Source of the DNA: Armatimonadota bacterium
GTDB lineage: Bacteria; Armatimonadota; Fimbriimonadia; Fimbriimonadales; Fimbriimonadaceae
NCBI GenBank assembly: GCA_020161505.1
Contig: JAIUNY010000027.1
Location: 1 to 34,980, forward strand
Direction of reading: 5' to 3'
DNA length: 34,980 nucleotides
The notes under the pieces are model-generated. The model was not told where the DNA came from. It made no database searches and saw nothing but the letters and a program-made list of their open reading frames with translations. The position numbers and the translations under genes are program-made. Shown here one piece after another: positions 4,451 through 30,425 of this stretch; positions within the stretch are counted from its first letter, which is position 1, and each line of letters starts with the position of its first letter.

Positions 4451-4534
4451 CCGTACTCGATTGGGCCGTAGCCCAGTCGAGCTTGCTCACCACGTGTTTG
4501 CAACCGAGCCGCGCTCTTCAAAGCAAGCGGGAAG

Positions 4535-4672
4535 CCCGCCCCACCTGGCCTTCGGCCACCCTCCCCCAAACGAAGTTTGGAGAGGGCGAGTCCAGGAATC
4601 GTCCCCGGATTCGGACGTAAGTGATCTCAAACAGCCCTGTCGCTGGTGCCCCGATCTCTTGAGAGTCGGAAA
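4535..4672. repeat. Dispersed palindromic repeat, M1 plus linker plus M2
   Basis: M1 reads CTGGCCTTCGGCCACCCT followed by CCCCAAACGAAGTTTGG. A linker resembling the one at 24.1 kb follows (GTGATCTCAAACAG), and then M2 in reverse (GCCCCGATCTCTTGAGAGTC). The same order and spacing recur at 24073-24200 and 27685-27812, so the composite is one mobile or amplified unit and not three coincidences. It lies in the gap between the convergent DUF58 and mdh genes. Confidence 0.8.
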
Positions 4673-10734: not shown

Positions 10735-11421
10735 ATGATCCCGATTCGCGACAACCTCAAAACGCGCGAAATCCCCGTCCTTGTTTGGACGTTGATCGGG
10801 CTGAACGTGCTGATCTACGTGTGGGATCGAGGGGGTGGACTCTTTGGCCCCAACCTCGCGTTTGCCGACCTCGCGATGCGCCCGCGCCAGGTGCTGCTCG
10901 CGCTTTCGCCGAACGGCGACCCGGTGGAGATGGCGAAGATTTTCACCAGCATGTTCCTCCATGGGAGCCTGGCGCATATCATTGGCAACGTTCTTTTCCT
11001 CGCCGCTTTCGGGCCGAGCGTCGAGTCAGCGTTTCGAGGCGGACGGTTCGCGCTCTACTATCTCTTCTGGGGAGTCTGCGCTGCCGCGGCACACATCTAT
11101 GTGAATCCAGGCAGCGATACCCCCACCGTCGGAGCCTCGGGTGCGATTGGAGGAGTTTTGGGGGCGTACTTCTTGCTCTTCCCGGGGAGCCAGATTCGGG
11201 TGGTGATCCCGCCGTTCATCTTCTTGCCCTTCACGGTGACGAGTTGGGTGCTTCTCGGCATGTGGTTTGCGTGGCAGATCATCTTCCCGCAGCCCGGCGT
11301 TGCCAATTGGGCCCACGCGGGGGGATTCCTGGCGGGCATGATCACCGTGCTTGTTCTGGGTGGGCGCGAAAAGGTCTTGCACGGCAGCAAGATCGAGGAG
11401 GACACAGATTTTGAAGATTGA
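10735..11421 (+). CDS. Rhomboid-family intramembrane serine protease
   Basis: 228 residues with about six hydrophobic helices. Catalytic Ser135 is in GASGAIGG and His194 in NWAHAGGFLAG. His76 and His81 and Asn84 (FLHGSLAHIIGNVLFL) supply the oxyanion and structural positions of active rhomboids. The N-terminus MIPIRDNLKTREIPVLVWTL is typical of bacterial rhomboids. It cleaves membrane proteins within or near their helices. It is the first gene of a tightly packed plus-strand cluster, and the next gene starts inside its last codons. A second, inactive rhomboid-like gene lies at 31.7 kb. Confidence 0.92.
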   Translation: MIPIRDNLKTREIPVLVWTLIGLNVLIYVWDRGGGLFGPNLAFADLAMRPRQVLLALSPNGDPVEMAKIFTSMFLHGSLAHIIGNVLFLAAFGPSVESAFRGGRFALYYLFWGVCAAAAHIYVNPGSDTPTVGASGAIGGVLGAYFLLFPGSQIRVVIPPFIFLPFTVTSWVLLGMWFAWQIIFPQPGVANWAHAGGFLAGMITVLVLGGREKVLHGSKIEEDTDFED

Positions 11422-13480
11422 TCGGTTGAATGCGCTCTGGCTCAAATTGCTTTGGCCCAGCCTGATCGTGACCGCGATTCTCGCGGGCATCAATCTCATC
11501 CCCCGATGGCAAGCCGAGCAGAGCAATCGCGCGGTTTCCCTCGTTGTCGAGTTCGCCACGGTTCGCGATTTTGCCCTTTCCCAGGGAGTTTCAATTCCCG
11601 ACGCCCTGGACGAGCTCAGCGCGATCGGTGTGACCGCCATTGCCCTCAACGAAAAGACCGCCGGAGACCTGATCTCTTCAGGCCAAGTCTCGGTGACCCC
11701 GTCTCCTCAGACCACCCGAGGGCTGGCGAGCAACGAGTTTCTGATTACAGGGCGGGCAAGCGATCTCGAGTGGATTCAGAGTGCCTATCAGGCGAGAACC
11801 GGTCAAAAACTCCTCCAGAGTGGGCTCAGCGGCGCGGTTCCCCGTCAACGGTTGCTCACCGATGATCCGCAGTTTTTGCGCTCGATCACCCTCGGCATTG
11901 ACCCTGCCGAAGCGAAACTGGTGCGCAATGCCGGATTGCAGATTGTCGGACGAATTGCCAATCCCATCGGCACCAGCCAACGCAGCATCGACTGGAACCT
12001 TAGCGAACTCAAGCGTCATGGAGCCGAGTTCTATCTGCCCCTCGGAGATGCCGTCCTCGGTGACCGTGAGCTCGTCGATCACACAATTCAGAGTCTGGAA
12101 TCGAACGGCCTGACCTACGTCGCGGCGGAGTTCGGCAAAACCAGCGGCGAGAGCAAGATCGTCGGCAAGCTCCAAGATCAAACCGTGCGACTCCATGCGG
12201 CTCAGGCGGCGGAGCTTCAGCGCATGGCTCCGGCGGCGATTGTCGAACGGTATGTCAAGGCAGCGCGCGAGCGGAACATCCGCATGCTTCTGGTTCGCCC
12301 GGCCAGCGCATCGGGCGAAAAGCCGTTGGGAGAGTTCAACAAGCTCCTGCGCGAGATCCGGCAAGGGCTCGAGCACGATGGTCTGACGCTGAAAGCGGCC
12401 CGACCTTTCTCGATGCCCGAGTCGAATTCACTGCTCAAGCTTCTCCTTGGCCTCGCCACTGTTCCAGTGATGGCGTTTGTCGCGAGCCGCCTCTTTTCCC
12501 CGGGCCGCCTTCAGACGGTTGCGGTACTCGGAACAGGCTTACTGGGCCTGGCCACGATCAGCGCCTCGTTCCGTGAATACACCGCGCTTGCCGCCAGCAT
12601 CGCCTTCCCGATTGCCGGATATCTCTGGTGGCTGGAAAAGGATCGCCGCCCGGTGTGGCTTGCCGTCGCCGGGATCTCGCTTTTCAGTTTCGTCGGGGGG
12701 CTTCAGGTTGCGGGGCATCTGACGGGGCTGAAATACATGCTCCACCTCGACATCTTCACCGGCGTGAAACTCTCGGTGTTCCTGCCGATTCTCATCATCG
12801 GCCTGATCCTCGCGTTCCGGTTGAAATCGTGGAAGGAGATCGGCGAGACGCCCGTTCTCTGGGGATCGCTGGTCGCGAGCATTGTCGGGCTGGGCGTGTT
12901 GATGTTCATGAACGCCCGCACTGGCAATGACAATCCTGCGGCGGTGAGTGGACTTGAGCTCCAATTCCGCGACTTACTGGATCGGGTTCTGTTTGTCCGC
13001 CCGCGAACGAAGGAGTTCCTGATCGGACATCCGGCTCTTGTGGTTGGAGCCTGGCTTGCGTGGGTCGCTCACAGCGGGCACCGCCTGGGCATCCCGACCC
13101 TAAAGGGATCGGGGCACCCAAGCGAGGGCGAAGCCACCCAACCTTCAATCGATGCCCTCCCCAAAATCTCCGATTTGGGGGAGGGTGGCCAAGGGCCGGG
13201 AGGGGGTTCGCTCACCACCCAAGCCTTGAGCGAGACACAACGCCAAACCACCATGACCCTGAAGGGATCGGCTTTGAAGCCTGCCGCCTATCTCCTCCTC
13301 GCCATCGGAGCGATCGGGCAGACGAGCATCGTGAACACGATGTGCCACCTCCACACCCCCATCCACCTCAGCGTGGCCCGAATCCTCTCCGGACTCGTGG
13401 CGGGATGTATACTCGGCCTGCTCGTTATTCTTGTGGCGCAGAGGGTCTGGCCGGATCTGCGAGCACGGGGTTCTGAGTAA
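11411..13480 (+). CDS. DUF5693 multi-pass membrane protein carrying an in-frame palindromic repeat
   Basis: About 689 residues from TTG 11411, preceded by GAGGAGG at a spacing of about 8 and overlapping the rhomboid stop by 11 bases. The N-terminal helix (LLWPSLIVTAILAGINLI) leads a large outside domain (about 35-330) with VEFATVRDFALSQG and IGVTAIALNEKTAGDL, the DUF5693 pattern. Helices follow from about residue 340 to the C-terminus (LLKLLLGLATVPVMAFV, YLLLAIGAIGQTSIVNTM, LVAGCILGLLVILVAQRVW). DUF5693 genes are commonly next to csaB, as here, so a role in cell-wall polymer pyruvylation is inferred. Residues about 560-622 are translated from the repeat at 13088-13275 (LPKISDLGEGGQGPGGG). They lie between two helices and look foreign to the family. 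Confidence 0.88.
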   Translation: MKIDRLNALWLKLLWPSLIVTAILAGINLIPRWQAEQSNRAVSLVVEFATVRDFALSQGVSIPDALDELSAIGVTAIALNEKTAGDLISSGQVSVTPSPQTTRGLASNEFLITGRASDLEWIQSAYQARTGQKLLQSGLSGAVPRQRLLTDDPQFLRSITLGIDPAEAKLVRNAGLQIVGRIANPIGTSQRSIDWNLSELKRHGAEFYLPLGDAVLGDRELVDHTIQSLESNGLTYVAAEFGKTSGESKIVGKLQDQTVRLHAAQAAELQRMAPAAIVERYVKAARERNIRMLLVRPASASGEKPLGEFNKLLREIRQGLEHDGLTLKAARPFSMPESNSLLKLLLGLATVPVMAFVASRLFSPGRLQTVAVLGTGLLGLATISASFREYTALAASIAFPIAGYLWWLEKDRRPVWLAVAGISLFSFVGGLQVAGHLTGLKYMLHLDIFTGVKLSVFLPILIIGLILAFRLKSWKEIGETPVLWGSLVASIVGLGVLMFMNARTGNDNPAAVSGLELQFRDLLDRVLFVRPRTKEFLIGHPALVVGAWLAWVAHSGHRLGIPTLKGSGHPSEGEATQPSIDALPKISDLGEGGQGPGGGSLTTQALSETQRQTTMTLKGSALKPAAYLLLAIGAIGQTSIVNTMCHLHTPIHLSVARILSGLVAGCILGLLVILVAQRVWPDLRARGSE
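13088..13275. repeat. Dispersed palindromic repeat (M2-M1-M2) inside the DUF5693 gene
   Basis: M2 CCCGACCCTAAAGGGATCGG begins at 13094. M1 has a 14-base inverted repeat with one mismatch (13155-13168 and 13172-13185; loop TCC) followed by GGTGGCCAAGGGCCGGGAGG. A partial M2 (ACCCTGAAGGGATCGG) follows at 13256. The block stays in frame without a stop and adds about 60 residues. Confidence 0.85.
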
Positions 13481-14548
13481 ATGGCAAAGCTGCTCTTGGC
13501 GGGATATTTTGGGTCGGGCAATCTGGGGGACGATGCCATCCTGCGCGGATTTGTCAGCGCGATCCCCGATGACTATAAGTTCCGCGTGATCTGCGGCAAC
13601 CCCGAGAAGCTCAACCGGCTCCACGGTTACAGCGGTGTCGGCAAAACCGATCTCGCCAAAGTCCGAGAAGCCATCGCCGAATGCGATGCCCTCGTTTTCC
13701 CGGGTGGGAGCATCTTCCAAGATGTCACGAGCGTGCGGAGTGTCGCTTACTACTCCTCCCTCGTAAAGGATGCCAAGAAGGCGGGCAAAAAAGTCATCAT
13801 GCTGGGGCAGGGGGTTGGCCCCCTCAATCGATTTATGGGCAAGCGCTTTGCTGCTTCCGCCTTCCAATCGGCCGACCTGATCTGCGTTCGTGACGCCGCC
13901 TCGGTCGGAGCCCTCAAGGAACTCGGCATCAAGGGCGTACCCAAAGTGACCGCCGACAATGCTTTCCTCCTTCCCGAGCCTCCGCGCAGCGAAGAATCCA
14001 GCAGCTTCGGCGTGGCCGGCATGAAGACGATCGGCGTCTCGGCACGGCCCTTTGGGAAGGATAAAAGCAAGGCCGTCATCAAGACCTTCGCCGAGTTCGT
14101 GAAGTTGCTTTCAAACAACGGCTACGTGCCGGTGATGCTCGCCCTCGATGAAGCGGAAGACGCGCGCATCATTCAAGAGATCGCCAAAGTTCATGGCGGA
14201 AAGGTGCCGGAACTCAAGGGTGTTTCCAACCCGATCCAAATGCAGGAGCGCATCTCGCGAATGGAAGCCGTGGTGGCGATGCGGCTCCATGCCGGAATCC
14301 TCGCGACGACGGTGGGTGTTCCCAGTTACATGGTGAGCTACGATCCGAAAGTCACGGCTTTTGCGAACTCTCTCGGCTATGCAAGCCCTCCAAGTATCCA
14401 GGGGTTGACGGCGGATCGGTTGTTCAATGGGTTCCAAACATTCATCAAAGATCGGGAGCGCACGGCGACGGCGATTCGGGCAAAGCGCGAGGAACTCGCC
14501 AAGGCCGCTTACGCCAACATCGACGCCCTGCGTGCCTGCCTTGAGTAG
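13481..14548 (+). CDS. csaB: Polysaccharide pyruvyl transferase CsaB
   Basis: 355 residues starting immediately after the DUF5693 stop codon (TAA then ATG), so the two are translationally coupled. Signature stretches are LAGYFGSGNLGDDAIL near the N-terminus, ALVFPGGSIFQD, VIMLGQGVGPLNRFMG, and the C-terminal AVVAMRLHAGILATTVGVP followed by SYDPKV. CsaB adds ketal pyruvate to a cell-wall polysaccharide, which then binds SLH-domain surface proteins. Length is typical (about 350-370). In this diderm context it suggests SLH-mediated attachment of outer-membrane or surface-layer proteins. The next gene starts inside its last codons. Confidence 0.93.
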   Translation: MAKLLLAGYFGSGNLGDDAILRGFVSAIPDDYKFRVICGNPEKLNRLHGYSGVGKTDLAKVREAIAECDALVFPGGSIFQDVTSVRSVAYYSSLVKDAKKAGKKVIMLGQGVGPLNRFMGKRFAASAFQSADLICVRDAASVGALKELGIKGVPKVTADNAFLLPEPPRSEESSSFGVAGMKTIGVSARPFGKDKSKAVIKTFAEFVKLLSNNGYVPVMLALDEAEDARIIQEIAKVHGGKVPELKGVSNPIQMQERISRMEAVVAMRLHAGILATTVGVPSYMVSYDPKVTAFANSLGYASPPSIQGLTADRLFNGFQTFIKDRERTATAIRAKREELAKAAYANIDALRACLE

Positions 14549-17474
14549 GAATGTGATCCGATTCGGCCTGGCGGCGTGGCTGCTGGGCGGGTCAGTTGCC
14601 TTTGGGTTCTCGGTCTCGCCTGCTCTAAGGTCCTCTGGAGCTGAGGTTGGGTCGACGGGTATTTGGTCAGAGTTGGGTGGTGTTTTGCCCCTCCCGGCCT
14701 TTGGCCACCCTCCCCGAGTCAAGCTCGGAGAGGGCGAGATCTGGGGGTTGGGTGGTGACGCAGGTGCTTTTCTCCCAATCGACACCCCATCAGAATTGGT
14801 TCTCGCGACCCTGGGAACCGGGGGTCAAATTGCCGATTCTCGCCCTCTCCAAACTTCGTTTCGGGAGGGTGGTCAAAGGCCGGGAGGGGCTGACTCTCCC
14901 CCTGCTCCCGAATCCATCACCCCGACCCCAAAAGGAACAGAACACCCGAGCGGGCAAGAAACAGCCCCGCCTCCCAGAGTCGAAAACCTCCCCGACCGAA
15001 AGCCTTCCGCCGTGCAGGAATTCCGGCGATGGCTGGACAACACCCTCATCGAACGCACCAAGCTCTTTGGTCAGCGACGCTTGGCTTACTCGTTCCGCCA
15101 AGTCAGCGGCGACCGCACCGCCTACAACACCACCAACTCGGGTGGATTTGGCGACCAAAGCTTCACGAACTTAGGCTATATCCGCGTGGAGAGCCGAGGC
15201 ATCTATGGCTGGTTGAACCTGGACGCCAACCTCCAGGACGCCCGATTCGAAGATCCGCAAATCGCTCGCTACCGCCTGTTCACCGATCGCGGGAAATGGA
15301 ACGGTCAGCTGGGAGATGTCAACGCCCGATTGCCGAGCACCAACCGCTTCATCCAGTACGGGCGGAGCGTCAATGGGCTCCAGCTGGGGTACCGATCCGG
15401 AGGGCTGGAGGTCGGACTCGTCCGCACCAATTCGCGCGGCGAGGCACGGACTGTCACGATCCAAGGCACCAACTCCGCAGGGCCTTACTATCTCCAAAGC
15501 AGCCAAGTTATTCGAGGGAGCGAGCGCATCGAGATTGATGGCATCGCCCAGATTCTTGGTCAGGACTACACGATCGACTACGAAATCGGCTCGATCACCT
15601 TCGTCAATCGACAAACTCTTCAAGCCAAGCTGATTCCTCCGACCAGCACGATTGTCGCGACGTACGAGTCGCTCAACTTTAGTGGCGGAGGCGGCCGAGT
15701 CGAGGGAGGCGTGGTCAACTACAACCTCGGAAGAGGCGGCAAGATTGGGATCACCGGCTTGCGCCAAACCACCGGAGCCAGCGCGGATCTGTCCACTCGT
15801 CTGGAGAAGTTCCAAGGCTTCGGGCCACCATCGACGCCTTACTTCCTCCAATTTGAGCCTCTCGCGACGCAACCGGTTGTGATCCGCGTGGATGGTGTCC
15901 TCCAAACCCAGGGAGTGGACTACACCTTCGACGCCAGCAACCGGGCGATCTTTTACTTCACCCGATTCATGCCCGCGACGAATCAAATCGACGTCCTGTA
16001 CACCCCCAAGCCGACATCCTCCACTTTGGGCGACCGAGAGGTTTTTGGCATTGACTACACACTCAGCTTTGGCAAAGGCTCCAGCTTGCAGCTGAGTCAA
16101 GCCACCGGTCGCACCACCAACTCTCCGACCCCAAGCTCGGGAACCGCGCGCAGTGCCCGATTCACCTATCAACTCGGCCCATGGTCTGGCACCACCTCAA
16201 CACGTTCGATCCCCAGCACCTTCGTGAGCGTCGAGTCGGCCGGATTCCTCCGAAACGAGGATGCAAGCGACCTCACCCTTCGCCATGCCAGCCGGAAAAA
16301 TGGTGATCTCTCTCTGACCCACCTCAACGCGAGCATCACTCGGTTTACCGGAGCAACTGCCGCCCCGACGCGAACGCGATTCTCCCGTTCGGAGATCAGC
16401 TACGACCTCTCGCGGGAGAACACCAAGGCGTTCCCGATTCGGGTGTCGCTCCTCAGCACAAAATCGCAAGCGGGCACCAGCCGCACAGACGTGGATTCCT
16501 TGAACCTCGAATCCTCCCGCACCTGGGGAGGGCTGCAGATGCGCTTCGGAGCAAGCCAGCAGAAGGTGACGGGAACCCAACCGGCCGACCTTTCGACAGC
16601 ACGGCTCCAAGCAAGCTATTCTCGCAGCCGAGAGTGGCAGTTCACCGCTGGATCCTCGCTCAGCTGGATCAAATCCGGGAGCGATTCTGGTCAGGGCCGC
16701 GAGCTTTCCCTGACCGCCCAGTACAACCCCACCGAGCGATTCAACGCCAGACTGGGCTTCAGCGACAACGATGCGGGCGACCTCAGCAGTCTCGCGGGAA
16801 TCGACACCGGCTACGGCGCCGGATACAACGGCAACGGTTTTTCGTCTGGTGCAGGATCGAGCTTTGGCGTCGGCGCAACCAACGGTCGCAGCCTGAATCT
16901 CTTCGCAAACTGGGAGATGACCGACCGAATCACCGGTCGCCTGAGCGGACTGATCTTCCGGAGTTCCGGCAACTTCAGCTCGAATTCGGAATCGAAATCG
17001 CTGTCCGCTGGCGTCGATGTCGATCTGGGCAAGGGGCACGTTCTCTCGGGCGATCTGAGCACGAGTTCGACAGAATTTCTGGAATCTCCCGTCAGAAGCA
17101 GCGTCACCACCGGCTCTGGATCCATCACCGGATCCTTCGGGAAACTGGGCTACCGGTTCACCGGAACCGCTTTGATGACGGGCGGAACGAGTACCTTTAA
17201 GCAAGATTCCTGGAGCTTCGACCTTGGCCTCGACTACCGCCTCAGCACCCGGGAGAATCTGGGATTGCTCATCAACGCCGGCCGTTTGAGCGGATACCTT
17301 CCCCAAGATGAAGCCGATCTGGCCTTCAGCTATCGGTACCAAATTTGGCAGAATCTCGCTCTCAATGCGAACTACCGATACCGCAACATCCGAAACCGGG
17401 ACGCCACCTTGACTTCGGGTGCTTACCGATCCAACACATTTGACATCGAACTCGGGTTCAATTTCTCTGGCTGA
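14541..17474 (+). CDS. Large outer-membrane beta-barrel-like protein with a repeat-derived N-terminal segment
   Basis: About 977 residues. The start is uncertain: TTG 14541 overlaps the csaB stop; GTG 14532 and GTG 14553 are alternatives. All keep the signal peptide (FGLAAWLLGGSVAFGFS). Residues about 35-150 come from palindromic repeats (PLPAFGHPPRVKLGEGE, REGGQRPGGADSPP) and look disordered. From about residue 158 (VQEFRRWLDNTLIERTKLFG) the chain is beta-rich. It includes strand-turn modules of the type GSERIEIDGIAQ...GQDYTIDYEIGSITF, then RVDGVLQTQGVDYTFDASNR, and many alternating aromatic/Ser/Thr strands ending DIELGFNFSG, with Phe near the C-terminus. This is an outer-membrane barrel design; no named family is recognised. 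It sits between csaB and a lipoprotein gene in the envelope operon. Confidence 0.75.
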   Translation: MSRNVIRFGLAAWLLGGSVAFGFSVSPALRSSGAEVGSTGIWSELGGVLPLPAFGHPPRVKLGEGEIWGLGGDAGAFLPIDTPSELVLATLGTGGQIADSRPLQTSFREGGQRPGGADSPPAPESITPTPKGTEHPSGQETAPPPRVENLPDRKPSAVQEFRRWLDNTLIERTKLFGQRRLAYSFRQVSGDRTAYNTTNSGGFGDQSFTNLGYIRVESRGIYGWLNLDANLQDARFEDPQIARYRLFTDRGKWNGQLGDVNARLPSTNRFIQYGRSVNGLQLGYRSGGLEVGLVRTNSRGEARTVTIQGTNSAGPYYLQSSQVIRGSERIEIDGIAQILGQDYTIDYEIGSITFVNRQTLQAKLIPPTSTIVATYESLNFSGGGGRVEGGVVNYNLGRGGKIGITGLRQTTGASADLSTRLEKFQGFGPPSTPYFLQFEPLATQPVVIRVDGVLQTQGVDYTFDASNRAIFYFTRFMPATNQIDVLYTPKPTSSTLGDREVFGIDYTLSFGKGSSLQLSQATGRTTNSPTPSSGTARSARFTYQLGPWSGTTSTRSIPSTFVSVESAGFLRNEDASDLTLRHASRKNGDLSLTHLNASITRFTGATAAPTRTRFSRSEISYDLSRENTKAFPIRVSLLSTKSQAGTSRTDVDSLNLESSRTWGGLQMRFGASQQKVTGTQPADLSTARLQASYSRSREWQFTAGSSLSWIKSGSDSGQGRELSLTAQYNPTERFNARLGFSDNDAGDLSSLAGIDTGYGAGYNGNGFSSGAGSSFGVGATNGRSLNLFANWEMTDRITGRLSGLIFRSSGNFSSNSESKSLSAGVDVDLGKGHVLSGDLSTSSTEFLESPVRSSVTTGSGSITGSFGKLGYRFTGTALMTGGTSTFKQDSWSFDLGLDYRLSTRENLGLLINAGRLSGYLPQDEADLAFSYRYQIWQNLALNANYRYRNIRNRDATLTSGAYRSNTFDIELGFNFSG
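14687..14965. repeat. Dispersed palindromic repeats (two M1 and two M2-like units) in the beta-barrel gene
   Basis: The first M1 (14690-14740) reads CTCCCGGCCTTTGGCCACCC, then CTCCCCGAG and CTCGGAGAG around AAG-type loop bases. A decayed M2 follows (CGACCCTGGGAACCGGGG, near 14807). A second M1 in the opposite orientation lies at 14840-14890 (CCCTCTCCAAACTTCGTTT, then GGTCAAAGGCCGGGAGGGG). An M2 follows near 14930 (CCCGACCCCAAAAGGAACAG). All are read through in frame. Confidence 0.82.
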
Positions 17475-21599: not shown

Positions 21600-22480
21600 A
21601 TCAGCGACCCAACAAGAGTCTCTGGGCGGCTCTGATTTTTGCCCTCCTGATCATCCTCGGGTGCGGAGGGGGCGGAGGTGGAGTTGCGCCGAGCAATGTG
21701 GATGTCTTCGGCAATGTTGTGTGGATCGAAACCGGGTCGGCAACGGCTCCTCAAGCGACGGTGCGGATCGGAGATGTCTCGGCCCAGACCGATGCGTTCG
21801 ATGGCTACTTCAGTCTGACCGTGCCGGCGGGGGCGACAAGCCTCACCGTCACCTATGCGCCGACTTCCACCGGCACCCCGATTGTCCGAACCTTCACCTT
21901 CCCTGCCGCTGCCACCGATCGCGATCTGGGCGAGATCTACATCGGCCCCGATGAGGTGATTGTCACGGGAATTCTCCGCGATTCGGCGACAAATTCACCA
22001 GTCAGTGGTGGAAATATCACCATTGCTGGACGCGCCGGAACCAGTGCCGCAGACGGGCGATTCAGTGTTCCGAATGTCGCCTACAGCGGCTCAACCCTCA
22101 GCGTCTTTCTTGGTTTGCAGGGCCGGGTGACCGCGGCGGGGTACTTCACCAGCTTCTTCAACCCTCCCAGTGCAGCGGTGGGAGGAGTGGTCGATGTCGG
22201 CACCGTTCTCATGACTTCGCAGGGCAGCGGAACCCCTCCGCCGATCCCCAGCAACGTCAATGGAACCGCAACCCCGAACGCGGCGGGGGCTACGATCCAG
22301 GTTCTGCAGGGCCCATCGGTGATCCGCACCACGACCGTCGATGGCCTTGGTCAGTTCAAACTCTGGCTTCCGGCTGGAACTTACACCGTCCAAGCGACCC
22401 TTGGTTCACGATCCGGAAGCACCCCCTTGACGATCTCGGACGTCCAACAAATAGTCAACGTCAATGTCACTCTCAATTAG
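21596..22480 (+). CDS. Lipoprotein with carboxypeptidase-regulatory-like domains
   Basis: 294 residues. The signal peptide and lipobox (LLIILGCGGGGGG) are followed by a flexible Gly stretch. Three small beta-sandwich units then come in succession (VDVFGNVVWIETGSA...DAFDGYFSLTVPAG; VTGILRDSATNSPVSGG...ADGRFSVPNV; VNGTATPNAAGATIQVLQG...GLGQFKLWLPAGTYTV). Each has the D-G-x-F or G-x-F-x-L turn of CarboxypepD_reg/DUF4382-like domains. It starts on the ATGA shared with the preceding stop and overlaps the LptC-like gene by 17 bases. It is a second lipoprotein paralogous in style to the one at 17.5 kb. Confidence 0.8.
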   Translation: MNQRPNKSLWAALIFALLIILGCGGGGGGVAPSNVDVFGNVVWIETGSATAPQATVRIGDVSAQTDAFDGYFSLTVPAGATSLTVTYAPTSTGTPIVRTFTFPAAATDRDLGEIYIGPDEVIVTGILRDSATNSPVSGGNITIAGRAGTSAADGRFSVPNVAYSGSTLSVFLGLQGRVTAAGYFTSFFNPPSAAVGGVVDVGTVLMTSQGSGTPPPIPSNVNGTATPNAAGATIQVLQGPSVIRTTTVDGLGQFKLWLPAGTYTVQATLGSRSGSTPLTISDVQQIVNVNVTLN

Positions 22481-23909
22481 GTCGGCTCGATCCACTGCCC
22501 TCACCGCGATTCTTCTTTGCGTGGTGGGAGCAGTCGGGTTTGTCTCGGTGCGCTGGGTGACCGATGTCGTGAAGAGCGACGCCCTCGCCCCGTATCGGGC
22601 CCAGAACACTCCTTTCAAACTCGGCGAAGGGGTGATTATGGAGGGGTTCTCCATCAACAGCTATCTCGGGAGCCGACTCGTCACGGAAGCGAAAGTGAAG
22701 GAGGCGGTCATCCGAGGCGACCGGAGTCTGGTGGACCTCAAAGGGGTCTACGACGGCAAGTTCTACGACGCGGATGGCAAGGTCTACCAGTTCAGCGCGA
22801 ACTCGGCAACCTACGGCACGTATTCCAAGGCGATCATTGCTCGAGACGGGATTCGGGTGTGGAACGAGAAGGTGGATCTCCAGGCGGCAGGGTTTGTCTA
22901 TGACCACAACACGCGCACTCTTCGCGTTGAAGGCGCAGTGACCGGCAAGATCAACGGCGGAGACACCCGCGCAGAGACGCTTGAGCTGAATCTGGCCAAA
23001 GGCAGCCTGGCCACCGGCAAAATCGCCTGGACCGGCCCGCTTCAGGTCGAAGGCCGTGGCCTGACCCGGTGGAGCATTTCCAGCGACAGTTCCAGCCACA
23101 AAGACGGCATCACCACCTTCATCAACGCCAAGGGATCCGACAAAGACACGATTGTCAAGAGCGACAAAATGACTCACGATCGGACGAACGAAATCGTCAC
23201 GGCGGAGGGCAATGTCGAGTACTTCGGTCAGGAAGCGAATGTCGATTGCGAAAAAGTCGTGATTGAGCGCAAGCTCGGCAAGGCCACCCTCACGGGGAAG
23301 AAAGTGACGATGCTCATCAAGCCCGAGGAAACTGCGCCGAAGGAGTCCCAAATCCCGCCCGTCAGTCCTCTGGTGCCCGTAGATGTCGCGAACTCTCGCC
23401 CAACCACTGGCGATACTCCGGAGGAAGAGGCGCGGCGCCGCGAAAACGAGCAGATTCGCTCTCCCGAAAATCTCCGCCAGTATCCGCTCGCCATCACCGC
23501 AAGCAAGATCGAGTATTGGTACCGCAAGGGTCAGCGTCGTGCGGTGGTGACGGGGTCTCCGTTTGCCCGCCAAGAACTCGGAGCGATGAAGTGGCGCGAA
23601 CTCTATGCTTTCCGTGCAGAATATGATGGCGAAAAAGAGCAGCTGCGGCTCTCCAGCCAGGGTTCTCAGCGCAATATCCGTGTCATCAACTCCATCGGAG
23701 ACGACCTGAAGGCGGAGACGTTTATCGTGAGCACCAAGAAGGACGACGACTCCTACGAAGGCACGAGAATCGAGGGCGTCTACATGGTGGACGACAACGA
23801 TCTGCCTCAGCAGGGTGGCTCGACGGGAGGTGCGGCGGGCGGCACTTCCACGGGAGGCGGAACCACTGGCGGATCCCCTCCAACGGTCTCCGGTCGGATC
23901 GGAACTTAG
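22464..23909 (+). CDS. LptC/OstA-like lipopolysaccharide-transport-type protein
   Basis: 481 residues. An N-terminal single helix (ALTAILLCVVGAVGFVSV) anchors it as in LptC. A beta-jellyroll region follows (about 45-200: YDGKFYDADGKVYQFSANSA, VWNEKVDLQAAGF, RTLRVEGAVTGKINGGDTRA). An OstA/LptA-type module is near 220-285 (IVKSDKMTHDRTNEIVTAEG, VDCEKVVIERKLG), and a second such stretch near 340-440 (LAITASKIEYWYRKGQRRAV, ELYAFRAEYDGEKEQLRL). The tail is Gly/Thr-rich. E. coli LptC and LptA are separate, about 190 residues each; this looks like a fused or extended form bridging inner and outer membrane. It is the last gene of the operon and overlaps the lipoprotein by 17 bases. The ligand (lipopolysaccharide or other glycolipid) is not shown. 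Confidence 0.75.
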   Translation: MSLSIRSARSTALTAILLCVVGAVGFVSVRWVTDVVKSDALAPYRAQNTPFKLGEGVIMEGFSINSYLGSRLVTEAKVKEAVIRGDRSLVDLKGVYDGKFYDADGKVYQFSANSATYGTYSKAIIARDGIRVWNEKVDLQAAGFVYDHNTRTLRVEGAVTGKINGGDTRAETLELNLAKGSLATGKIAWTGPLQVEGRGLTRWSISSDSSSHKDGITTFINAKGSDKDTIVKSDKMTHDRTNEIVTAEGNVEYFGQEANVDCEKVVIERKLGKATLTGKKVTMLIKPEETAPKESQIPPVSPLVPVDVANSRPTTGDTPEEEARRRENEQIRSPENLRQYPLAITASKIEYWYRKGQRRAVVTGSPFARQELGAMKWRELYAFRAEYDGEKEQLRLSSQGSQRNIRVINSIGDDLKAETFIVSTKKDDDSYEGTRIEGVYMVDDNDLPQQGGSTGGAAGGTSTGGGTTGGSPPTVSGRIGT

Positions 23910-24005: not shown

Positions 24006-24280
24006 TCCTCCCCCATCCTGGGGGAGGGCAGGGAGGGGGCCGCTCACGCGGAAGCAAGTGCTGATCCCGCCCCTCCCGGCCTTTGGCCACCCTCTCCAAA
24101 CGGAGTTTGGAGAGGGTGGCCAAAGGCCGGGAGTTGACCGCTGGTTCAAAGGTGACGGATCTCAACAAGCAGTAACTGGTTGCCCTGATCCCTTTAGGGT
24201 CGGGATTTCTGGAAGAGCAACCGATCTTCGATTGCGCTCTCTCCGGGGAGGGTGGCCGAAGGCCGCGAGGGGCCGCCTAC
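24006..24280. repeat. Dispersed palindromic repeat cluster, including a perfect 29-bp hairpin
   Basis: Three M1 units occur (24006-24040, 24067-24135, 24235-24280) with one reverse M2 between the last two (GATCCCTTTAGGGTCGGGAT near 24188). The middle unit has arms 24073-24101 and 24105-24133 that are exact 29-base complements around GGA. This block fills most of the 518-base gene-free gap 23910-24427. I see no gene or promoter of note in the rest, apart from GGAGGAAAG just before the NfeD start. It probably also ends transcription of the envelope operon. Confidence 0.88.
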
Positions 24281-27651: not shown

Positions 27652-27684
27652 GTCTGGTTTGAGGGCGGAACCGGGCGATGTGTC

Positions 27685-27812
27685 GACCCTCCCGGTCGTT
27701 GGCCACCTCCCCGCGTCAAGCTCGGATAGGGCAAGTGCGGGAGTCGTCCGCTCGTGCGAAAGTCATGGAGCCCAAACAGGAGGAACTGGGTTCCCCGATA
27801 CCTTCCGAGCCG
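27685..27812. repeat. Dispersed palindromic repeat, M1 plus linker plus M2 (decayed)
   Basis: M1 reads CCTCCCGGTCGTTGGCCACC then CTCCCCGCGTCAAGCTCGG. The linker AGTCATGGAGCCCAAACAGG matches the linkers at 4.6 and 24.15 kb. A decayed reverse M2 (GGTTCCCCGATACCTTCCGA) ends it. The gap 27609-27899 holds only this and the terminator. Confidence 0.75.
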
Positions 27813-30380: not shown

Positions 30381-30425
30381 TCCCGACCCTGACGGGCTCG
30401 GTGCACCCCAGCGTGGGCAGGCGGC
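30381..30425. repeat. Dispersed repeat, isolated M2 module
   Basis: CCCGACCCTGACGGGCTCGG then TGCACCCCAGCGTGGGCAGG. This matches the M2 start and following bases at 13.1 kb (CCCGACCCTAAAGGGATCGG, GGCACCCAAGCGAGGGCG) in the same order. It lies between the convergent MGMT-like and dGTPase genes without an M1 partner. Confidence 0.7.

Follow-up and report, generated by a model that had tools for sequence, protein, structure and literature searches.

Probable in-frame insertion of a composite palindromic repeat into an outer-membrane beta-barrel gene of an Armatimonadota bacterium

Introduction

Rickettsia palindromic elements (RPE; Ogata 2000, 2002) are described as palindromes of 100-150 bp that occur between genes and also in frame within unrelated conserved genes (PMC10969869, PMC2229807). 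Repetitive extragenic palindromes (REPs) with GTAG or CGTC tags are placed at gene ends and have intragenic copies, including some in DNA repair genes, and the CGTC type is described without a transposase (PMC3733652). TM-ECO, a G/C-rich intrastrand triplex motif of the pattern CCCTCNCCC-N3-6-GGGNGAGGG-N3-GGGNGAGGG, is described as always intergenic in E. coli, and the published search for it allowed loops of 1-6 nucleotides (nt) (Holder et al. 2015, PMC4666352). Here we analyze a 34,980-nt stretch of DNA (the window), the entire contig JAIUNY010000027.1 (G000:C16 in our numbering) of a 3.14 Mb, 99.94% complete Armatimonadota genome. It holds a gene for a putative outer-membrane beta-barrel protein in which copies of two palindromic repeat units, called M1 and M2, lie just after the signal-peptide codons.

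The family formed by M1 and M2 resembles RPE in being palindromic, intergenic as well as in frame in unrelated conserved genes, and, as far as RPE are described in the papers cited, in having no known dedicated transposase. It differs from RPE, judged by their description, in sequence look, in its GC-richness, in having two unrelated hairpin modules that form mosaic clusters, and in the mirror third tract of M1; the Rickettsia genome is reduced and that of the present host is not. Palindromic inserts that are in frame in conserved genes and missing from their orthologues, as in RPE, were found in six genes. Palindromic amphipathic repeat coding sequences are palindromic, coding and horizontally distributed like M1, and their description as tandem intragenic repeats sets them apart from it (PMC2996958). 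RPE behavior is established and intragenic REPs outside Rickettsia are in print, so events of this kind are not new. What is new, as far as the literature was searched, is the repeat itself, together with its triplex-motif design, its host lineage and its recurrence across phyla. Among the matches listed, there was no paper on the M1 repeat when its core was searched as text, and none on this subject for palindromes of Armatimonadetes or Fimbriimonas. The outcome is the same as with the Rickettsia coding palindromes, but it is produced by a different palindrome, with copies in six or more genes of a single species and in two genes that belong to two other phyla.

Repeat-derived segment of the barrel protein

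The N-terminal segment of the barrel protein very probably goes back to a composite palindromic repeat whose in-frame insertion gave the protein a disordered linker. An earlier note on this DNA had placed two oppositely oriented M1 units and M2-like pieces between signal peptide and barrel. Such an arrangement was indeed found, amounting to about 115 residues (Table 1); the span that it gave, 14687-14965, is the core of the segment, and the repeat-derived stretch starts about 45 nt earlier. The two M1 units are 85% complementary and spaced 98 nt. An nhmmer comparison with all 69 repeat clusters in the genome except the segment's own showed positions 14639-14983 to be covered by at least three clusters and positions 14654-14959 by at least five (best E 1.6e-18). 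Chance does not account for the resemblance: DNA search located the same unit at about 30 places of the genome, 37 sites match the pattern of hairpin A, one of the two M1 hairpins, with no more than one mismatch, and 92 sites match M2 with two mismatches or fewer, versus 4 for the reversed control. The frame is open across the repeats for about 330 nt, and we infer that it is translated.

The barrel gene is present in 28 of the 31 genomes searched (own included). N-termini could be read in 26 of the 27 matched relatives, one being interrupted by a contig end, and the repeat segment is in none of these 26 orthologues, this being the comparison proposed in the earlier note. For this purpose the N-termini were listed ungapped, because signal peptides of the orthologues are scattered in the MAFFT alignment (A2). 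The orthologue signal peptide, counterpart of 14541-14616, adjoins the barrel directly; in all seven genus mates it is followed at once by a conserved helix preceding the barrel. On the DNA level (E up to 0.001), only one of 30 relatives has a match to the repeat, and none of the seven genus mates does. A search of 291 phylum-level genomes, own included, which scored few candidates at most per genome, gave matches at E up to 1e-5 only in the own genome and in G023, where the match (L061) shows hairpin B only. The absence of both repeat and segment from relatives points, within the genomes sampled, to an insertion and a bloom that are confined to this species. By this comparison of sequences, the segment is an insertion and not the result of loss in relatives.

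An assembly artefact that joined unrelated contig ends at a repeat could give a similar picture, and M1 or insertion sequence (IS) copies are indeed found at contig ends of the assembly. We consider this barely credible, as the gene order DUF5693-csaB-barrel matches that of genus mates, no break interrupts the frame and the pattern recurs in six separate genes.

No Pfam family matched the barrel protein. Its AlphaFold2 model is a large beta-barrel with a mean predicted local distance difference test (pLDDT) score of 72, and Foldseek pairs the model with the outer-membrane barrels Mtr, SlpA, LptD and BtuB (best E 4e-11), at TM-scores to the query of at most 0.35. Residues 1-138 and 143-147 have pLDDT <50 and the first helix comprises residues 153-166. 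The insert is thus predicted to be a disordered, Gly/Pro-rich linker.

The single strand 14660-14920 (261 nt) folds as one long hairpin (RNA z -7.6, DNA z -6.2), a fold matched by none of 200 shuffles. Such a very stable hairpin right after the signal-peptide codons could suggest that the inserted linker was recruited, either as a periplasmic spacer or as an mRNA hairpin that pauses translation and aids targeting, and in relatives other linkers are tolerated at this site, between signal peptide and barrel. The same repeat occurs in unrelated cytosolic enzymes without such a need, and the segment is found in one genome only. Recruitment therefore has only a small chance of being correct.

Start of translation and points against the insertion reading

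Several observations weigh against reading the segment as a newly inserted, translated linker. The genus mates are only about 50% identical in the barrel, and some orthologues (L008, L011, L026 and L028) have unrelated proline-rich linkers at the same place. What sets the present linker apart is therefore its origin from the repeat, not its presence at this site. The signal-peptide residues of the model also have low pLDDT and the underlying alignment is shallow, so low pLDDT in the N-terminus is not specific to the insert. M2 is not stop-poor, being open in 4.57 of six frames vs 4.96 when shuffled; M1 is open in a mean of 5.79 of six frames vs 5.13. Finally, a codon-usage gene caller, trained on 21 window genes with the barrel gene taken from 15060 on, starts the barrel gene at GTG 15012 and not upstream. 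By this measure the insert has no native coding signal, a real negative result which we attribute to its foreign composition.

The choice of the caller would be expected if translation began at about 15012 and the repeats were a structured 5' untranslated leader, and REPs at gene 5' ends are described as often untranslated (PMC3733652). This arrangement is very unlikely in our judgment. A protein starting at 15012 would be without the signal peptide that an outer-membrane barrel needs, an intact signal-peptide-like frame lies upstream of this codon, and the frame through the repeats is uninterrupted. Possible start codons of genus mates lie at -5 or -8 nt from the first base of the csaB stop codon; TTG 14541 lies 5 nt before this stop codon, the position used by most genus mates. 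The earlier note had named a true start near 15000 as the finding that would speak against a translated segment. Such a start is unlikely, since the protein would lose its signal peptide and the gene its conserved start at the csaB stop; on balance the upstream start stands, with the preference of the caller as the dissenting result.

Repeat family and architecture of M1

The stretches fetched from the genome contain 47 M1 copies which together with M2 copies form the 69 clusters, many of them inverted pairs. Using a simple gene caller, 37 clusters were placed between convergent genes, 23 between tandem genes and one between divergent genes, with four at stretch edges and four inside genes; all adjacent gene pairs of the same stretches, cluster gaps included, are 119 tandem, 46 convergent and 36 divergent. 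The clusters in the barrel gene and in the MutY gene described below are not among the four intragenic ones because the caller leaves these genes short of the repeat. Most copies are intergenic, mostly after stop codons, a REP-like placement at gene ends. Copies that precede the domain start of DapA, OsmC, TrmFO, DUF4230 and a beta-lactamase-like gene were left out of the intragenic count. Long frames made wholly or largely of repeat (C6:8859-9557 and C11:289078-290667 [L104, L108], and others) have no Pfam or NCBIfam family and were rejected as spurious. Frames such as C6:8859-9557 and C11:289078-290667 may be called as genes by annotation pipelines. A search of Rfam gave no family in the window.

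The following counts of covariation, tags and mirror tracts are based on 43 aligned M1 copies, i.e. the 47 copies minus four interrupted by IS. They align as two hairpins, A and B, with 88.6% of the cells paired in this structure. Both sides of a pair were changed in 70 cells, compared with 27.3 in shuffles (reached in 0 of 500) and 7-18 when the structure was slid. Such double changes include GGCC/GGCC to GCCC/GGGC in hairpin A; in hairpin B, examples are GAG/CTC, AAA/TTT and CGA/TCG. The tract before hairpin A mirrors the tract of the hairpin-B stem at a mean of 7.14 of 8 positions; shuffles within the tract gave 5.76, with a maximum of 6.09 in 2000.

On its other strand M1 reads as a C-rich tract, a loop, a G-rich tract, a linker and a mirror G-rich tract, the linker being a 12-nt GGCC hairpin. 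By this plan M1 is a hairpin-linker variant of the TM-ECO triplex motif. As described for TM-ECO (PMC4666352), the likeness extends to inverted pairs, an erratic distribution between close species and no mobility gene nearby. The mirror third tract is present in M1, and the exact TM-ECO pattern is not found in the aligned copies. The second loop of TM-ECO has 3 nt in that description, whereas the linker of M1 has about 12 nt, and some M1 copies are located in coding regions, in contrast to the exclusively intergenic location reported for TM-ECO in E. coli. With its 12-nt linker, M1 would be missed by the published search.

M1 and M2 are like the REPs of PMC3733652 in being small hairpins that form dimers, follow stop codons and have intragenic copies, in DNA repair genes among others. 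The GTAG tag was found in none of the 43 M1 copies; CGTC occurs on the 3' side in 14 and a CGAG-like sequence in 24 of them. Stems and tails published for CGTC REPs differ from those of M1 (PMC3733652). With regard to miniature inverted-repeat transposable elements (MITEs), inverted pairs of M2 or M1 are common in the genome.

In-frame copies in other genes

At least six genes carry the repeat in frame: those for the barrel protein, a DUF5693 membrane protein, MutY, a cysteine-desulfurase-like protein, a nucleotidyltransferase and a CN-hydrolase. For DUF5693, orthologue matches break at query positions 544-558 / 615-629 in 20 of 20 relatives (in relative G021 the gene is also broken across contigs), and the repeat DNA covers 13076-13227, with an M2-like piece reaching 13269. 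MutY (C3:57331-58620; L100:932-2221, minus strand) was matched in 20 of 20 relatives. An insert of about 75 residues is located between PWR and the YxVWVSE helix: residues ~28-104 are missing in 19 of 19 aligned orthologues, and repeat DNA at C3:58313-58529 corresponds to residues ~30-102. Residues 35-99 of the MutY model have pLDDT <50 and most of the rest is above 90. Residues ~138-190 of the cysteine-desulfurase-like protein are missing in seven of seven genus mates, and the repeat DNA at C10:18306-18458 corresponds to residues ~137-188. The nucleotidyltransferase and the CN-hydrolase each have a short piece around one M2, of ~18 residues (missing in 6/6 aligned genus mates) and 18 residues (missing in 6/6 usable rows), respectively. 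Rows left out were L327 (CN-hydrolase, misframed), L316 (nucleotidyltransferase) and L145 (MutY). The repeat is read in different frames, reverse M1 being translated as ...EGGQ.PGG in DUF5693 and the barrel protein and as ASGRVAEGREGLS in MutY.

The earlier note had drawn attention to two exported or membrane proteins of one operon with the same element and had suggested that it can seed new disordered linkers. DUF5693 and the barrel protein do both carry the element in frame, but the idea that exported or membrane proteins are special in this respect is not supported: all four other cases concern ordinary cytosolic enzymes, and the majority of copies are intergenic. The second suggestion is supported by the inserts of the barrel protein and MutY, both predicted to be disordered (pLDDT <50): being in frame, such insertions would add new disordered segments. 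Since the inserts are in one species and not in its congeners, before-and-after pairs of the same enzymes are available for MutY and cysteine desulfurase. Such pairs allow a direct test of the cost of a sudden disordered insert of 50-115 residues.

Occurrence in other phyla

At least 117 stretches of public genomes contain the exact 25-nt core of M1; 80 loci were read. By record titles, the taxa among the matches listed include Geomonas, Azoarcus, Nitrospirae, Verrucomicrobia, Elusimicrobia, Doudnabacteria, a Clostridiales bacterium and Pseudoxanthomonas, as well as Chloroflexi-type metagenome-assembled genomes (MAGs) of Anaerolineae and Ktedonobacterales. A hairpin-B arm lies within 45 nt of 80 of the 82 cores in these loci, and the mirror score over the 82 cores is 8.61 of 9. 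M2 was in none of the 80 loci. Single contigs among the external copies may represent MAG contamination.

The exact core is spanned by 36 frames with at least 120 nt on each side, and 20 of these were compared with Pfam. Seven of the 20 have a Pfam family; the core lies inside or between domain matches in two (L176 and L228) and before the domain in the other five. In RsmG (GidB) of a Nitrospirae MAG (L228:6658-7563, minus strand), two conserved blocks are separated by an M1-type insertion that is in frame and about 50 residues long. The solved chain 1xdz aligns to query residues 7-62 and 123-275; the two aligned blocks are 11 residues apart in 1xdz and 60 residues apart in the query. For DNA polymerase IV of a Doudnabacteria MAG (L176:1067-2512, plus strand), the core falls within the IMS_C match in the C-terminal domain, where 129 residues match 99 profile positions; alignments to PDB chains end before the core. 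Two further proline/glycine-rich pieces of similar look are present in this polymerase.

One possible reading, which we put forward tentatively, is that M1 is a trans-phylum palindrome and hairpin-linked relative of the triplex motif that spreads without a resident transposase, blooms in individual species and has repeatedly written in-frame disordered segments into housekeeping proteins of unrelated phyla, namely in the present species, in the Nitrospirae RsmG and in the Doudnabacteria DNA polymerase IV. If true, new protein disorder would have a general source that crosses phyla and is not a Rickettsia curiosity.

Mobility and mechanism

The finding also bears on how repeats copy without a visible transposase. 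The palindromic nature, inverted pairs, intergenic gene-end bias and IS insertion into the palindrome are REP-like and could indicate classical REPs moved by a REP-associated tyrosine transposase (RAYT) of the Y1 type, and Y1_Tnp genes exist in 21 of the 31 genomes searched. Against this stand the lack of any PF01797 (Y1_Tnp) candidate in the own genome, nearly complete as it is, and the missing GTAG tag. A home-made profile built from the RAYTs of eight relatives found one RAYT fragment beside one external copy (L172); its matches in own stretches and in genus mates were rejected on reading the alignment, as they correspond to the C-terminal helix-turn-helix of what we take, from its sequence, to be RpoD. 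Movement by a RAYT is unlikely in view of these results.

At five of six distinct IS ends seen, the hairpin-B loop of M1 contains an IS481-family element (NF033577 above cut-off), which makes M1 an IS target and not an IS product. Insertion of IS into REPs has been described (PMC1525189). No ends shared between the repeats and the IS481-family IS were seen when read by eye. The loci with IS481 in M1 are L111 (C22:10422), L117, L119, L130 and L276, several of them near contig ends, and M1 is thus a break point of the assembly.

We favor copying that is passive and structure-driven, or that was carried out by a transposase since lost. A GC-rich, stop-poor, structure-prone palindrome would land at random, copies arising by replication-associated template switching at hairpins or by a transposase acting in trans or lost since. 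In needed genes, only copies in frame and in loops or linkers would survive, each donating a new disordered segment. For the barrel gene, a composite repeat would have been inserted just after the signal-peptide codons with the reading frame kept, at a site presumably tolerated as a flexible junction outside the fold.

Other features of the window

Coordinates of the segment, of the neighboring genes and of further repeat copies in the window are collected in Table 1.

Table 1. Genes, repeat units and related features of the window, in order of position.
Feature	Position	Strand	Details
Intergenic M1 between convergent genes	4521..4586	+	M2-like at 4634-4669
Gene for DUF5693 membrane protein, with ~60-residue repeat insertion	11420..13480	+	PF18949; split orthologue matches
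Insertion in DUF5693 gene	13076..13269	+	M2 13093-13110 (+), M1 13155-13205 (-), M2-like 13252-13269 (+)
csaB, polysaccharide pyruvyl transferase	13481..14548	+	TIGR03609 above cut-off; PF04230; stop overlaps barrel start
Putative outer-membrane beta-barrel protein gene	14541..17474 (start TTG 14541) or from GTG 14553	+	Open reading frame, conserved start, model, Foldseek
Signal-peptide-like segment MSRNVIRFGLAAWLLGGSVAFGFS	14541..14616	+	Read from sequence; place matches orthologue signal peptides
Repeat-derived in-frame insertion, ~115 residues	14639..14983	+	nhmmer depth of at least 3 clusters; orthologue comparison
M1 unit, forward	14687..14739	+	53 nt
Stretch between the two M1 units	14740..14837	.	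Repeating GGGGGTTGGGTGGT linker found beside other copies
M1 unit, reverse (inverted partner)	14838..14890	-	53 nt
Degenerate M2, 3 mismatches	14921..14938	+	Translated TPTPKGTEHPSG (compare IPTLKGSGHPSE of DUF5693 M2)
Intergenic cluster	24049..24272	.	M1 inverted pair 24069-24136, M2 24187-24204 (-), M1 24245-24272 (-)
Degenerate intergenic M1-like copy	27684..27731	.	67% to reference
Intergenic M2 between convergent genes	30382..30399	+	
M1 half (hairpin B), near contig end	34847..34876	-	97%

Downstream of the barrel gene, the window encodes at 22464-23909 a protein with weak LptA/LptC-like matches below the cut-off. Considered alongside LptD among the Foldseek matches of the barrel, this could possibly be an envelope-transport neighborhood.

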